A DNA stretch of 39,526 nt from Pontiellaceae bacterium B1224 (lineage in GTDB: Bacteria; Verrucomicrobiota; Kiritimatiellia; Kiritimatiellales; Pontiellaceae): the NCBI GenBank assembly GCA_029432815.1, contig JAROBA010000045.1, positions 1-39,526 on the forward strand. The letters are read 5' to 3'. Of this stretch, positions 8,824 through 25,259 are shown in pieces. Position 1 is the stretch's first letter. Each line of letters starts with the position of its first letter. Position numbers and translations under genes: made by a program. The notes beneath the pieces were generated by a model, which saw only the letters and a program-made list of their open reading frames with translations, made no database searches and was not told the origin of the DNA.

Positions 8824-9924
8824 ATGGGACTGAGTGTCGGAATTGTCGGACTTCCAAACGTTGGAAAGTCGACCATCTTTAATGCGTTGACGCGCGAACA
8901 GAATGCGGAAGCAGCCAATTATCCGTTTTGTACGATTGAACCGAACAAGGCCGTTGTGCCGGTTCCGGATTTCCGCTTGGCTAAACTAGCAGAGATTGCC
9001 GGTTCGCAGAAAATTCTCCCGGCTACCGTAGACTTTGTGGATATTGCCGGGTTGGTTAAAGGAGCGAGTCAGGGCGAGGGATTGGGAAATAAATTTCTGA
9101 CCAATATTCGGGAAACCGATGCCATTCTTCAGGTCGTACGCTGTTTCGATGATGGTAACGTGGTGCATGTAGACGGCTCTATTGATCCGGTTCGGGATAT
9201 TGAAATTATTGAGGCCGAGCTGATTATTGCAGACTTCCAGATGATGGAAAATCGGCTGAGCCGCGTTAAGAAAGCTGCTCGTACCGATAAGGCCATGGCA
9301 GCCGCGATGCCGACCTTTGAAGCTTTGTTGAAGCACTTGGGCGAAGGCAATATGGCCTATAAATTTGTAGAGAAAGATTCGGAAAAGGGACGGTTAATCT
9401 TCAAGGAATCCCAGTTTCTGACCGATAAAAAAGTGATCTATTGCTGCAATGTGGATGAGGACGGTCTGGGCGAAGACAACGACTATGTAAAAGCGGTAAA
9501 GGCGTATGCAGCGGAGCGCGATTCTGATGTGGTTAAGATCTGCGCGAAAATGGAAGAGGATCTTAATGGTATGTCGGATGAGGAGCGGGTTGAGTTTCTG
9601 AAGGAATACGGCGTGAAAGAGAGTGGTCTCGATCAGATTGTTCATACGGGCTACCGTACGCTTGGTCTTATCAGCTATCTGACGCAGGGACCTAAAGAGA
9701 CGCGTGCCTGGACGATTCATCAGGGCGATACGGCACCTAAGGCGGCTGGGGTTATCCATAGCGATTTTGAGCGGGGCTTTATTCGGGCACAGGTCATGGC
9801 CTACTCCGATTTTGTCGAGAATGGCGGAGAATTAGCCTGTCGTGAGAAGGGGCTGCTCCGAACTGAAGGGAAAGAATATGTCGTTAAGGACGGCGACGTG
9901 ATTGAGTTTCTGTTTAATGTATAG
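8824..9924 (+). CDS. ychF: Redox-regulated ATPase YchF (Obg family)
   Basis: Universally conserved P-loop ATPase that binds ribosomes. The 366-residue product opens with GIVGLPNVGKST (G1), then VDFVDIAGLVKGASQGEGLGNKFL (G2/G3). The G4 motif is NVDE (in YCCNVDEDG) in place of NKxD, the change that gives YchF its ATP preference. A TGS domain forms the C-terminus (AWTIHQGDTAPKAAGVIHSDFERGF...KDGDVIEFLFNV). Length is canonical. The P-loop codons form an exact TTCCA-N5-TGGAA copy at 8852-8866. A strong terminator follows at 9968. Confidence 0.97.
   Translation: MGLSVGIVGLPNVGKSTIFNALTREQNAEAANYPFCTIEPNKAVVPVPDFRLAKLAEIAGSQKILPATVDFVDIAGLVKGASQGEGLGNKFLTNIRETDAILQVVRCFDDGNVVHVDGSIDPVRDIEIIEAELIIADFQMMENRLSRVKKAARTDKAMAAAMPTFEALLKHLGEGNMAYKFVEKDSEKGRLIFKESQFLTDKKVIYCCNVDEDGLGEDNDYVKAVKAYAAERDSDVVKICAKMEEDLNGMSDEERVEFLKEYGVKESGLDQIVHTGYRTLGLISYLTQGPKETRAWTIHQGDTAPKAAGVIHSDFERGFIRAQVMAYSDFVENGGELACREKGLLRTEGKEYVVKDGDVIEFLFNV
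8852..8866. repeat. TTCCA-N5-TGGAA dyad inside ychF (in the P-loop codons)
   Basis: TTCCAAACGTTGGAA, an unbroken palindrome apart from the central base, read as LPNVGK. The protein is strongly conserved here, so this copy may be partly coincidental. Confidence 0.7.
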
Positions 9925-9967
9925 AGGTTTTTCAACTCGCTTTGATTTAGACCGGATCTAGGTTTAG

Positions 9968-9998
9968 AGCTCATGTGGATTCAGCATGAGCTTTTTTT
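9968..9998 (+). terminator. Rho-independent terminator of ychF
   Basis: AGCTCATG/CATGAGCT 8-bp perfect stem with a 9-nt loop; the 3' arm runs straight into seven T. It starts about 44 nt after the ychF stop. Confidence 0.9.
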
Positions 9999-10008
9999 GT
10001 GTAGATAT

Positions 10009-10051
10009 AAAAAAACGATGCATGGAAAAGAGGAGAAAAAACCATGCATCG
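10009..10051 (-). ncRNA. Hairpin with CUCCUC loop and U-run on the minus strand (candidate sRNA end / terminator), copy 1
   Basis: Perfect 10-bp stem CGATGCATGG (10016-10025)/CCATGCATCG (10042-10051). On the minus strand the 16-nt loop reads TTTTTTCTCCTCTTTT and the hairpin is followed by seven T (10015 down to 10009). This has the form of an intrinsic terminator presenting an anti-Shine-Dalgarno-like CUCCUC in its loop. Read on the plus strand, the loop instead presents GAGGAG. No promoter was recognised with confidence. Confidence 0.5.
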
Positions 10052-10166
10052 GAAACAATCAGCCCAAGCGGGAATCATGTTTTCAGGGAATTGTTACAGG
10101 GGGTTAGACCGCCTTGTGCAAAATAGTTCAAAATTATTCTGATTTTTGTCGAAGGGTGCTGAGGGC

Positions 10167-10208
10167 AAAAAAACAGCGCAAGGAAAAGAGGAGGGAAACC
10201 TTGCGCTG
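10167..10208 (-). ncRNA. Hairpin with CCCUCCUC loop and U-run on the minus strand (candidate sRNA end / terminator), copy 2
   Basis: Perfect 10-bp stem CAGCGCAAGG (10174-10183)/CCTTGCGCTG (10199-10208) around a 15-nt loop. On the minus strand the loop reads TTTCCCTCCTCTTTT and the hairpin is followed by seven T. The stem differs completely from copy 1 at 10016, whereas the loop and U-run are alike, so the loop appears to be the conserved part. Confidence 0.5.
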
Positions 10209-10232
10209 AAAAACGGGAACCCAACAAGATAC

Positions 10233-10305
10233 CCATTTTTAAAATGATTCGGTCGTTGCTGACCATTGTTCCTGAAAACGGATATAACTCACCATTTTTG
10301 AAATG
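10233..10305. repeat. Two CCATTTTTnAAATG direct repeats upstream of skp
   Basis: CCATTTTTAAAATG (10233-10246) and CCATTTTTGAAATG (10292-10305) are 59 bp apart. Each is itself a short AT dyad. The role is unknown. The rest of 10310-10400 shows nothing recognisable. Confidence 0.5.
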
Positions 10306-10403
10306 TGTTGGCGAGTACTATTTTTTGAGTCACCGGAAAAGTGTGTCATGTTACTTCGCTAATAGGCCAATTTGAAGGCTTTGTGATTACGGGACGTGCA
10401 TCG

Positions 10404-10581: not shown

Positions 10582-11199
10582 ATGAAAAAGACATTAACCT
10601 CCCTTGTTTTAACCGCCTTCATATTGCTTGGAACCGCGCATGCCGCCGAAGAAATTGCCTTTATAGATCTGCAGGAAGTATTCAAGCAGTTCTATAAAAC
10701 CCAGTTGGCGCAGGATCAGATTCGGCAGCAGGCTGACGACATCAAGATGGAACGGGAAGAGATTGAGGATGAAGTTAAAGTGATGAAGGAGATGATTGAA
10801 GAGCTTCGTACTGATTCGCGGGATGAAACCCTGAGTCAGGATGTGCGCGATAATAAGCGCGATCAGCTGGAGGAAAAACTCGTTGAACTCCAGAAAAAAG
10901 AACAGGACATGATCGATTTCGAAAAGCTCCGTATGCAGCAGATGGAACAACAGAATACGCGCATGACCAAAAAACTGTTCGATGAAATTCATGAAGTGAT
11001 TATTCAATATGCCAAGGTTCAGGGTTTTAGTGCGGTGATTGATCGTTCGGCTCAGAGCAGAATTGGAACCGATATGGTGCTTTTTACCAGTCCCCAGGTC
11101 GATGTGACCGCTGATGTGCTCGCCGTTCTAAATGAAGGCCGCGAAAGCACGAAAGATGTTGAACCTGAACTTGCAGTCGAAACAAAGGTTGAGGAATAA
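10582..11199 (+). CDS. skp: Periplasmic chaperone Skp/OmpH family protein
   Basis: The 205-residue product starts with a clear signal peptide (MKKTLTSLVLTAFILLGTAHA), then EEIAFIDLQEVFKQFYKTQ. A long charged coiled coil (roughly residues 45-145) follows, then IIQYAKVQGFSAVIDRSA, the Skp-type C-terminal strand. Skp holds unfolded outer-membrane proteins in the periplasm. The frame stays open upstream to 10450, but ATG 10582 is chosen because the signal peptide begins there and AAAGGATG lies just upstream. lpxD follows after 3 bp, the classic skp-lpxD neighbourhood of LPS-bearing bacteria. The short acidic tail after the last strand (KDVEPELAVETKVEE) is extra. Confidence 0.88.
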   Translation: MKKTLTSLVLTAFILLGTAHAAEEIAFIDLQEVFKQFYKTQLAQDQIRQQADDIKMEREEIEDEVKVMKEMIEELRTDSRDETLSQDVRDNKRDQLEEKLVELQKKEQDMIDFEKLRMQQMEQQNTRMTKKLFDEIHEVIIQYAKVQGFSAVIDRSAQSRIGTDMVLFTSPQVDVTADVLAVLNEGRESTKDVEPELAVETKVEE

Positions 11200-11202
11200 A
11201 TC

Positions 11203-12231
11203 ATGAAGCTTTCGGAAATAGCGGAACAGGTTGGAGGTATACTTGAGGGACGCGGTGATATTGAGATCAATGCTGTCGCCGGTTTGAAAGAGGCCTCTTC
11301 CGGGGATATCAGCTTTCTGGCAAACCCGAAATATGCGGCTCAGGTTGCGGAAACTGCGGCCTCTGCCGTTATTGTGCCGAACGACTGGGATCGCTCTGTA
11401 AAGTGTGCAGTTATCCGTTCCGAAAATTCTGATCAGGCTTTTGCAAAAATCGCCGAACTTTTCTACGAACCCGTGCCTGCGGCGGCACCCGGCATACACG
11501 CCTCTGCCTCGGTAGCTGAATCAGCTCAGCTGGGCGAGGGTGTTTCAATCGGCGCCAATGTGGTGATTGAAGCAGGTGCAGTGATCGGCGCGAATACCGT
11601 CATTCAGGCGAATTGCGTCATAGGGTATAAAAGCGTTATCGGTGATGACTGTCTGCTCTATCCGCTGGTCTCCACCCGCGAATTTACAGAGATTGGAAAT
11701 CGCGTCATCATTCATAACGGAACCGTGGTCGGCTCCGATGGTTTTGGCTACGCCGTGCAGAAAGATGGGTCGCGCACGAAGATTCCACAGATTGGAAAAG
11801 TGGTCATTGGCGACGATGTCGAGATCGGTGCAAATGTTGCGATCGACCGGGCTCGTTTTGGCAAGACCAAAATCGGTAACGGTTCGAAGATCGATAATCT
11901 GGTTCAGATTGCACATAATGTTGTGATTGGTGAACATACGGTGATGTGTGGCCAGTCCGGGATCTCTGGAAGCACCACGATTGGTTCCAAAGTGATCCTG
12001 GCCGGGCAGGCCGGGCTGGCAGGGCATCTTGAAGTGGGCGATGGTGCCATTGTCGGTGCTCAGGCCGGGGTCATGAAAGACGTGAAGGCGAAGGATTTTG
12101 TAATCGGTTCTCCGGCAATGACTCACCTCCTGACCAAAAAGATGATTGCCAGTATGATCACCCTGCCGAAGTTGAAAGACAAAATGAAGCGGCTTGAGGT
12201 TCAGATGGCCGAGCTTCAAAAAGAAAAATAG
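11203..12231 (+). CDS. lpxD: UDP-3-O-(3-hydroxyacyl)glucosamine N-acyltransferase
   Basis: Third step of lipid A synthesis: adds the second 3-hydroxyacyl chain to UDP-acyl-glucosamine. The 342-residue product has an N-terminal uridine-binding domain (about 1-100, with SSGDISFLANPKY) and a left-handed beta helix of hexapeptide repeats (GVSIGANVVIEAGAVIGANTV onwards). The catalytic His sits in VQIAHNVVIGEH. A C-terminal helix ends RLEVQMAELQKEK. Its presence shows the cell makes lipid A. It is joined to skp by a 3-bp gap. An exact dyad copy at 11783-11797 encodes IPQIGK. Confidence 0.96.
   Translation: MKLSEIAEQVGGILEGRGDIEINAVAGLKEASSGDISFLANPKYAAQVAETAASAVIVPNDWDRSVKCAVIRSENSDQAFAKIAELFYEPVPAAAPGIHASASVAESAQLGEGVSIGANVVIEAGAVIGANTVIQANCVIGYKSVIGDDCLLYPLVSTREFTEIGNRVIIHNGTVVGSDGFGYAVQKDGSRTKIPQIGKVVIGDDVEIGANVAIDRARFGKTKIGNGSKIDNLVQIAHNVVIGEHTVMCGQSGISGSTTIGSKVILAGQAGLAGHLEVGDGAIVGAQAGVMKDVKAKDFVIGSPAMTHLLTKKMIASMITLPKLKDKMKRLEVQMAELQKEK
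11783..11797. repeat. TTCCA-N5-TGGAA dyad inside lpxD
   Basis: TTCCACAGATTGGAA, read as IPQIGK. It is the only exact copy whose first spacer base is not a purine. Confidence 0.8.
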
Positions 12232-22875: not shown

Positions 22876-23856
22876 ATGACAGGAAAAAAACTAATTGGAA
22901 TGGTGATCGCGCTGGCCGTTTTACTGGTGGTGGTCGTGGTGCAGCAAAGCGGGAAAAAAACGGGCCGGGCCGGGACGGATAACGGGGCAACCCTTTTCCA
23001 GGGGTTGGAACTTAATCTGGTGGACGGGCTGGAAATTGCCGACGGATCCAATACCGTTTCGCTTGCGAAGCAGGATGGCAAATGGGTCGTGGGCTCGCTC
23101 TATAATTATCCCGTGGACTTCAGTAAGCTGGCCGAAGCGTTGCGCGCCGCTTCCGAGGTTAAAATGGGCGCTCCCGTGCGCACGTCGAACGTCGATGCGG
23201 CTGAGTATGGCCTGAACGAAGCCAAACGGGTGGAGCTGAAAAGCGGCGGGAAAACCGTGGCGTGGGTGGAGATCGGCGCGCGGCGCGAAGGTTCCGATTC
23301 CGTCGGCTGGGCCAATCAGCATTTCATCCGTAAAGATGAGCAACCCGAAATTTATCTGGTCGACTACGACTTCCGTCCGTTTTCGGAAAGTTCCAAAGAC
23401 TGGATCAATACGGAACTGCTGAATGTTCGGTCGGCCGACATCGTTTCGGTCAACGTCGGCGATGTGGAATTGCATACGGTGAGCAACGCCTGGACGCTGG
23501 CCGATCTCGATGAAGAGACGGAAGAGTTCCAATCTTCGGAAGCGAACAAATTGCGGATGGCTCTGCAATATCTTAACTGCACTTCCATTGCGGACCCGGC
23601 TCTCTCGGACGCCGAGCTCGGTTTTACAAATGCAACAGTCTACACCGCCTCAACCACGAATAAGACCTACACGGTAACGGTCGGTGGCGAGGCCGAAAAC
23701 GGCCGCTATCTTCGTTTCAGTGGAGATGCACCTGAAAAACTGAACAATTGGACCTATGTGGTGAGCAGCTATGAAGCGGGCGATTTCCTGATCCCGCGCG
23801 AAAAGCTGGTCAAGCCGAAAGAAGAACCTGAAGCAGAAGAAGGAGAGGAACCATGA
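22876..23856 (+). CDS. DUF4340 domain-containing membrane-anchored protein
   Basis: The 326-residue product has an N-terminal transmembrane helix (LIGMVIALAVLLVVVVVQ), then a beta-rich region characteristic of DUF4340. Signs are VSLAKQDGKWVVGSLYNYPVDFSKLAEALRA and YLVDYDFRPFSESSKDWINTELLNVRSADIVSV. It ends in an acidic tail. DUF4340 proteins typically follow GldA/F/G modules, and that order is kept here. The last 4 bp overlap degP (ATGA), tying the transporter to the protease. An exact dyad lies at 22996 and a near copy at 23527. Confidence 0.88.
   Translation: MTGKKLIGMVIALAVLLVVVVVQQSGKKTGRAGTDNGATLFQGLELNLVDGLEIADGSNTVSLAKQDGKWVVGSLYNYPVDFSKLAEALRAASEVKMGAPVRTSNVDAAEYGLNEAKRVELKSGGKTVAWVEIGARREGSDSVGWANQHFIRKDEQPEIYLVDYDFRPFSESSKDWINTELLNVRSADIVSVNVGDVELHTVSNAWTLADLDEETEEFQSSEANKLRMALQYLNCTSIADPALSDAELGFTNATVYTASTTNKTYTVTVGGEAENGRYLRFSGDAPEKLNNWTYVVSSYEAGDFLIPREKLVKPKEEPEAEEGEEP
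22996..23010. repeat. TTCCA-N5-TGGAA dyad inside the DUF4340 gene
   Basis: TTCCAGGGGTTGGAA, read as FQGLE. A near copy, TTCCAATCTTCGGAA, lies in the same gene at 23527-23541 and is identical to the one at 17322. Confidence 0.85.
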
Positions 23857-25259
23857 GAAAGATCGTATCTGTCCTGAGCTTGTTCATCCTGATGGGGGGT
23901 GGAGCCGTTTCGGCCCAAGCCGCCGCCGAGAGAGAGGTGTTGCGGGAAACCGGAAATGCATTTGCTCAAATCGCGAAAGAGGCGCTGCCCGCAGTGGTTT
24001 TCATTGATGTGGAATCCACGATCGAGGTCCCGCAATATGGCTACCGCTATCAGCCGTTCCGGGATTTGTGGGGCCGCCGCGGCCAGTTGGCCATTCCGCA
24101 GGAGCTGGAACCGAAAAAATACAGTAAAGAAGGGCTGGGTTCCGGATTCATCATTTCGAAGGACGGCTACATCCTCACCAATAATCACGTGGTGAACGAT
24201 GCCGACCGAATTACGGTGATTCTGGCAGATGACCGCAAGTTTTCCGCCAAGGTGATTGGAAGCGATCCGAAGACGGAAGTGGCGCTGATTAAAATCGACG
24301 ATCCGCATGAACTGCCGTTTCTGGAGCTTGGCGATTCCGATGCGCTCCAGGTGGGCGAGTGGGTGCTGGCGGCGGGAAATCCTTTCGGACTGTCGCAGAC
24401 GGTTACCGCCGGAATCGTCAGCGCGAAAGGGCGCGATGAGGTGGGCATTGCGGAATACGCCAATTTCATTCAAACCGATGCCGCCATCAATCCGGGCAAC
24501 TCGGGCGGACCGTTGCTGGATATCGACGGCAAGGTGGTCGGCATCAATACGGCCATCTATTCCCGCAGCGGCGGCTATATGGGCATTGGCTTTGCGATTC
24601 CGATTAATCAGGCCATCCAAATTAAAGATCAACTGATCAAACACGGAAAAATTTCGCGCAGTGTGCTGGGCGTCTACATTCAGGATGTGAACGAAGAGCT
24701 GGCCAACAGCTTCGGGCTGGATGAGCGCGGCGGCATTTTGATTTCGCAGATTATTGAAGATTCCGCGGCGGAAGAAGCCGGTCTGCAGGGCGGAGATATT
24801 ATTGTGGAACTGAACGGGAAGAAGGTGGGCAAAATGGCTGCCTTCCGGAACCGGATTGCCGCAACACCGCCCAATTCAAAGATTACGCTCAAGATTTTCC
24901 GCGACGGAAAATATAAAAATATTTCGGCCATCACAAAGGCGATGGAAGGAGAGTCGGGGGCCCAGGCATCGGCCATTCTCGATGAAATAGGAATTTCCGT
25001 TGAAGATCTGGGTCGTGCGACAGCTCGGCAGTTTGGCTACACGGAAAACAGCGGCGTGCTGGTTACCGCGGTGAAACAGGACAGCCCAGCCTGGGAGGCC
25101 GGATTGCAACCGGGCCATCTGATCACCAGCGCAAACCGTAAATCGGTTGAAGACGCCGATGAATTTGCCGAGGCCCTTGCAGATGCAAAAGGCCGACGGA
25201 TCCTGTTTCTCGTTTCCGATGGCCGCAGCTCGCGGTATATCGTGGTGAACCGGGAATAA
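23853..25259 (+). CDS. degP: DegP/HtrA-family periplasmic serine endoprotease
   Basis: The 468-residue product has a signal peptide (to about residue 24), a trypsin-like domain (about 30-245) and two PDZ domains (about 260-350 and 375-465). The active-site His is H112 (TNNHVV) and the nucleophile is S217 (GNSGGP). At the place where HtrA proteins usually have the catalytic Asp (T/S-D-hydrophobic-A), this protein reads TEVALIKI, with Glu at about 142. The enzyme degrades or refolds damaged envelope proteins. It overlaps the DUF4340 gene by 4 bp, so it is part of the transporter operon and lies about 5 kb after the Hsp20/YfdX operon. A strong terminator follows. Confidence 0.94.
   Translation: MRKIVSVLSLFILMGGGAVSAQAAAEREVLRETGNAFAQIAKEALPAVVFIDVESTIEVPQYGYRYQPFRDLWGRRGQLAIPQELEPKKYSKEGLGSGFIISKDGYILTNNHVVNDADRITVILADDRKFSAKVIGSDPKTEVALIKIDDPHELPFLELGDSDALQVGEWVLAAGNPFGLSQTVTAGIVSAKGRDEVGIAEYANFIQTDAAINPGNSGGPLLDIDGKVVGINTAIYSRSGGYMGIGFAIPINQAIQIKDQLIKHGKISRSVLGVYIQDVNEELANSFGLDERGGILISQIIEDSAAEEAGLQGGDIIVELNGKKVGKMAAFRNRIAATPPNSKITLKIFRDGKYKNISAITKAMEGESGAQASAILDEIGISVEDLGRATARQFGYTENSGVLVTAVKQDSPAWEAGLQPGHLITSANRKSVEDADEFAEALADAKGRRILFLVSDGRSSRYIVVNRE

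Follow-up and report, generated by a model that had tools for sequence, protein, structure and literature searches.

Two minus-strand hairpins between ychF and ompH/lpxD

The window, by which we mean the whole stretch of DNA analysed (39,526 nt, positions 1 to 39,526 of contig JAROBA010000045.1 from Pontiellaceae bacterium B1224), holds two hairpins on the minus strand of an intergenic region that is flanked by a ychF GTPase gene on one side and by an ompH/skp-like gene on the other. The features of this region are as follows:

8824 to 9924, plus strand: ychF GTPase gene flanking the pair (Pfam YchF-GTPase_C, 2.8e-37)
10009 to 10098, minus strand: type A small RNA, predicted, about 90 nt; leader and terminator conserved in the type A alignment
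10015 to 10009, minus strand: U-run of the type A terminator, seven U
10016 to 10051, minus strand: type A terminator hairpin, 10-bp perfect stem CGATGCATGG and 16-nt loop
10026 to 10041, minus strand: type A terminator loop, reading UUUUUUCUCCUCUUUU
10083 to 10094, minus strand: conserved type A leader from the alignments, here ACAAUUCCCUGA, family form ACAACUCCCUGA
10104 to 10133, minus strand: predicted ECF-like promoter of type A, -35 box TTTTGAAC at 10133 to 10126, -10 box GTCTAA at 10109 to 10104
10167 to 10277, minus strand: type B small RNA of roughly 110 nt, a prediction based on aligned type B members and with a tentative 5′ end
10173 to 10167, minus strand: U-run of the type B terminator, seven U
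10174 to 10208, minus strand: type B terminator hairpin, 10-bp perfect stem CAGCGCAAGG and 15-nt loop
10184 to 10198, minus strand: type B terminator loop, reading UUUCCCUCCUCUUUU
10209 to 10240, minus strand: upstream hairpin of type B, AAAAAUGGGUAUCUUGUUGGGUUCCCGUUUUU, from folding and alignment
10284 to 10312, minus strand: tentative type B promoter, GCCAAC at 10312 to 10307 and AGTTAT at 10289 to 10284
10582 to 11199, plus strand: ompH/skp-like gene, the opposite flank of the pair (Pfam OmpH, 5.7e-19)
11203 to 12231, plus strand: lpxD (Pfam LpxD, 9e-21), following the ompH/skp-like gene in an order that is the same in the other species with the pair

The original prediction had described two hairpins with perfect 10-bp stems, a nearly identical loop and seven U behind each, and all of this was confirmed. 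The stems are unlike each other apart from an outer C and an inner GG, features that are found family-wide. Written on the plus strand, the loop letters are AAAAGAGGAGAAAAAA for the hairpin at 10016 to 10051 and AAAAGAGGAGGGAAA for that at 10174 to 10208. Both hairpins fold more stably than shuffled sequence (z of -8.0 and -7.6, respectively) and both have the form of intrinsic terminators, a G+C-containing stem followed by a U-run. Folding also gave z-scores of -3.7 for the predicted type A transcript, the 5′ end of which is estimated from the promoter position, and of -4.3 for a 125-nt stretch containing the type B RNA. The two hairpins are the predicted 3′ ends of two small-RNA genes on the minus strand, with type B first and type A about 160 nt further on.

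In five species (that of the window, G027, G024, G016 and G008), the interval between ychF and ompH/lpxD contains the tandem pair in antisense orientation. The ychF neighbor is kept at loci L065, L075 and L081 and, as judged from translated sequence, at L203. In a further genome (G004), a similar tandem pair adjoins a Na/Pi-cotransporter gene. Rfam 15 has no match at gathering score to positions 10009 to 10208, and searches of seven family loci with E-values up to 1 returned sub-threshold matches only; identity with a known Rfam RNA was rejected on this basis. The sole Rfam match in the window is a TPP riboswitch at 2200 to 2300 on the plus strand (71.3 bits).

A terminator loop kept across the genus Pontiella

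The loop shared by the two hairpins reads GG-UUU(C)nUCCUCUUUU-CC on the minus strand and is followed by the U-run. Within the family it takes the form UUU(C)nUCCUCUUUU or UUCUUCCCCUUU, with UCCUCU or UUCCCC as core. Searching the genome of origin with positions 9950 to 10350 revealed four more places, and the pattern GGTTTN{0,8}TCCYYTTTTCC matched this genome 8 times as opposed to 0 for the reversed pattern. Many species of Pontiella each carry several copies of the same pattern; in an exact-pattern scan of GTDB genomes, multiple copies were seen in Pontiella and Kiritimatiellales and scattered single ones elsewhere, the contigs with the pattern including those of Pontiella sulfatireligans F21, Pontiellaceae bacteria B12219 and B12227, and Kiritimatiellales MAGs. 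A covariance model built from 44 distinct terminator hairpins (R1), which scores the type A and type B terminators of the window at 59.9 and 69.2 bits, respectively, has matches in 25 of 29 Pontiellaceae genomes and up to 17 in one genome. Across 288 genomes of the phylum, its matches outside the genus were weak and nearly always single, the highest score being 37 bits when the best true members reach about 70, as chance terminators would give. The expectation that the loop would be repeated elsewhere was thus borne out. At one locus (L235, G000:C121:79600-83900), four type A copies lie within about 1.4 kb, two of them nearly identical.

The stems of the 44 hairpins are paired in 99.1% of their cells, and 8 of the 10 stem pairs show compensatory changes on both sides, with the closing GG/CC and the loop core unchanged. 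The covariation score of 0.583 compares with 0.190 in shuffles, none of 500 reaching it, and with at most 0.192 when the pairing partner is slid. A loop that stays constant while its stem evolves freely is what one expects of a functional loop, and the earlier observation that the loop is kept while the stems change, made on two copies, holds for the whole set.

It could be argued that these are ordinary terminators whose loop, spread by duplication, plays no role beyond termination. Their form is that of intrinsic terminators and some copies directly follow protein genes. However, the loop is kept as the stems diverge with compensation, most members have a recognizable promoter of their own, and other terminators of the genome lack such a loop: among 38 strict intrinsic terminators in 833 kb of the genome of origin, the only pyrimidine-rich loops (at least 8 bases, at least 85% pyrimidine) are the two in the window. 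We therefore regard this explanation as improbable. The other terminators near family loci also show little pyrimidine bias and, together with the survey of 38, led us to reject pyrimidine-rich terminator loops as a genome-wide habit. The original prediction had allowed that the hairpins are just two minus-strand terminators; terminators they are, but not merely so, since they appear to end small-RNA genes, of which type A at least has its own predicted promoter.

The analysis took in 122 distinct family members. In those inspected for strand, the U-run comes after the loop in its pyrimidine-rich reading, which makes the minus strand of the window the one to be transcribed, as originally supposed. 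A further reading takes the plus strand as the working strand, with GAGGAG loops that might be bound by a CsrA-like protein or serve as a decoy for ribosome binding. A GGA in a hairpin loop resembles a CsrA site, but because the U-runs of every member examined and the recognized promoters lie on the pyrimidine strand we reject this reading, which strikes us as very remote.

Upstream sequences, promoters and mRNA 3′ ends

The terminator hairpin is joined to at least six unrelated upstream types that have no evident common sequence between groups, although their 5′ parts are conserved inside each type. Type A consists of the leader ACAACUCCCUGA, a small hairpin and the terminator, often with the loop UUCUUCCCCUUU; type B carries the hairpin AAAAUGGG..UUGUUGGGUUCCCGUUUU. 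The upstream sequence is UGAAACUCGGGUUUGGGUUUCACUUGGGC in type C, CCCACACGAC..GUGUGGGUAU..GUUCCCGCGGGAAC and variants in type D, GAAGCUUGCAACAGUUUC in type E and GUUUCUUCUUCCU in type G. That at least six types unrelated to one another end in the same loop suggests that selection acts on it directly, and its constancy, next to stems, 5′ parts and promoters that vary, makes the loop the probable working part.

Of 38 type A members, 36 have the promoter motif TTTTGAAC-N16/17-GTCTA, found in the window at 10105 to 10133, ahead of the RNA, compared with a mean of 0.18 in shuffles; tandem type A copies each have a promoter of their own. TGTCC[AC]-N-CGT is common to types D (12/12), E (8/9) and G (6/7). 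In all four types the -35 and -10 boxes stand at a fixed distance from the RNA; as inclusion in the type A and D sets depended in part on the motif, the independent evidence comes from E, G, the leader-defined part of A and the genome-wide scan. In that scan, covering four genomes, the type A pattern matched 20 times: 13 times before type A RNAs, twice before a Zn_peptidase_2 gene, once before a nitroreductase gene and 4 times before another conserved stretch. With GAAC and TCTA as for RpoE, and CGT in the -10 box, these boxes resemble promoters of ECF sigma factors. The tentative type B motif, a different one that was picked by eye from the type B alignment, lies 26–27 nt from CGTTYTC in the six or seven members having it. 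An envelope-stress setting would fit, as the neighboring ompH/skp and lpxD serve the envelope and a putative metallopeptidase gene likewise has the type A promoter in front of it.

Some copies come immediately after the stop codon in PEP-CTERM genes (hairpins that are type B-like or related, with no recognizable promoter of their own, at L062, L077, L084, L210, L225 and L237) or lie right behind EF-hand-like genes (loops of the UUCUUCCCC kind at L231, L239, L243, L244, L253, L254, L256 and L259), both gene classes having been assigned by eye from the DNA. Because the terminators of the EF-hand-like genes carry such loops, the mRNA 3′ ends behind them may release similar small RNAs.

Two other kinds of intergenic sequence were noted in these genomes. 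Short TTCCAATNATTGGAA-like palindromes recur between genes (L004, L005, L079 and other loci). In four species, a conserved and apparently structured stretch reading CCACGGAAUC....CACUUGGGGCCACGAGGUCAGGUCA....CCGUGGUUU lies directly after the end of a conserved ORF (L281 at G000:C193 about 31223, and L262, L267 and L269 in G027, G024 and G021); it has no Rfam match up to an E-value of 0.1 and is possibly another unannotated RNA.

Pairing partners and RNA chaperones

The 3′ end of the 16S rRNA reads GGATCACCTCCTTTCT, and the loop, as far as its letters go, resembles an anti-Shine-Dalgarno sequence. The original prediction had proposed pairing with ribosome-binding sites, including perfect AGGAGG sites, which the comparison with shuffled loops does not support. 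In the window the loop pairs better with start regions than with coding controls (p = 0.0017), and it has no advantage there over shuffled loops, 58 of 200 being as good. Of 215 genes whose ribosome-binding site is clear, only 5 show 7 or more contiguous matches to the loop, and 295 of 300 shuffled loops give a higher number, which argues against perfect AGGAGG sites as special targets. General blocking of ribosome-binding sites is therefore unsupported, and the loop would either bind a protein or pair with a small set of sites of the GAGGAG or GGGGA type. Exact 11-nt complements of the loop before an ATG number 12 in 28 genomes, compared to 2 in the control; no target recurs among these 12, each falling before a different gene or at no plausible start site. 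The strongest loop pairing in the window (-15.4 kcal/mol) is at the start region of a trypsin/PDZ (HtrA-like) protease gene at 23853 to 25259 on the plus strand, which is a candidate target only.

Hfq was searched for in 28 Pontiella genomes and gave no match, although the search controls were detected, and no ProQ was found in the genome of origin; KhpA is present. This brings in a second reading, that the shared loop and terminator stem form a handle for an RNA-binding protein (e.g., KhpA or a cold-shock-type protein) that stabilizes or delivers the RNAs in place of Hfq, with the type-specific 5′ parts pairing with the targets. The recurrence of a single loop both in many RNAs unrelated to each other and at mRNA 3′ ends, the conservation of the 5′ parts within each type, and the lack of enrichment of loop matches at start regions all agree with it. 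Because the loop matches ribosome-binding sites no better than shuffles do, it stays a serious rival. On the other hand, the loop alternates between UCCUCU and UUCCCC and varies in length by a few nucleotides, which is looser than a typical strict protein site, and C/U-rich terminator loops are already known as pairing sites. We consider the protein handle the less likely of the two and favor mRNA pairing as the mode of action.

A proposed Hfq-independent class of small RNAs

We propose that the RNAs form an Hfq-independent class, made from stress promoters, whose terminator loop pairs with purine-rich mRNA sites, and we put the probability of this reading at roughly 55%. The window would hold two tandem minus-strand genes of the genus-wide set, each ending at its intrinsic terminator, with type A starting at an ECF-sigma-like promoter of its own, probably in response to stress on the envelope or of another kind. 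In the terminator hairpin, the U/C-rich loop of 15–16 nt with its UCCUCU or UUCCCC core would lie exposed. Without Hfq, the RNA would act through this exposed loop, and type A perhaps also through its unpaired leader ACAACUCCCUGA, by pairing with a limited number of mRNAs at purine-rich sites close to their starts and reducing their translation. The gene anatomy, orientation, conservation, covariation, promoter motifs, synteny and absence of Hfq matches can be read directly from the genomes; we infer from them that the RNAs are transcribed, induced by stress, pair with mRNAs and repress them.

More tentatively, and with the odds somewhat against it, there could be a cell-wide Hfq-less RNA regulon in Pontiella that uses one terminator loop as a shared module. 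Several stress-specific promoters would feed RNAs with different 5′ parts, some mRNA 3′ ends would carry the loop as well, and the loop would serve either as a pairing seed used by all of them or as the place where an RNA chaperone docks.

A large, promoter-linked group of RNAs can be recognized from sequence alone in a genus that includes cultured species and in which no Hfq was detected. With such a group one could test how small RNAs locate targets or partners without Hfq, and whether unrelated RNAs converge on, or swap, one functional terminator loop.

Comparison with known systems

Small RNAs of this lineage are scarcely known. We found none from Kiritimatiellota or Pontiella in the open-access literature, and one survey of the PVC group contains only 8 annotated small-RNA families (PMC9029176). 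The genomic evidence strongly supports a real genus-wide set of small-RNA genes in marine Pontiella (Pontiellaceae, Kiritimatiellales), apparently undescribed so far.

The best-matching precedents lie in the Alphaproteobacteria. In the alpha-r14/NfeR1 RNAs, identical CCUCCUCCC seeds sit on three hairpins whose stems differ, and NfeR1 is Hfq-independent and pairs at translation starts (PMC10746234). CcsR1-4 of Rhodobacter share an operon with the gene of a small protein, and an RpoHI/RpoHII promoter precedes it (PMC10253847). Like these CCUCCUCCC ("cuckoo") RNAs, the Pontiella hairpins keep a C/U-rich, anti-Shine-Dalgarno-like loop on changing stems, as the covariation test found, and they share with CcsR the tandem copies and, as their promoters predict, the link to stress sigma factors. 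The likeness to CCUCCUCCC RNAs drawn in the original prediction is apt as an analogy, but membership fails on two counts: the ultraconserved CCUCCUCCC motif is absent from the loops of the family, and instead of several same-motif hairpins per transcript each predicted RNA has a single such loop, that of the terminator, with the sequence UUUCCCUCCUCUUUU or UUCUUCCCCUUU, in another phylum and behind many 5′ parts. Pairing with translation starts has been demonstrated for the NfeR1 type, whereas for the Pontiella RNAs it is a proposal.

The sigma-E dependent small RNAs of enterobacteria, RybB, MicA and MicL, are made from a GAAC/TCTA-like ECF promoter and use Hfq. The Pontiella RNAs resemble them in lying behind such a promoter, here in an envelope-gene setting, and differ in that RybB, MicA and MicL have other seeds as well as Hfq, which was not found in Pontiella. 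Another close parallel is RepG of Helicobacter pylori, in which a C/U-rich terminator loop is the pairing site (PMC8295292); it is RepG and the alphaproteobacterial RNAs that the Pontiella RNAs would most resemble in mode of action. RepG is one RNA that reads a G-repeat, whereas Pontiella has a large set of both paralogous and non-homologous RNAs with a loop of this kind.
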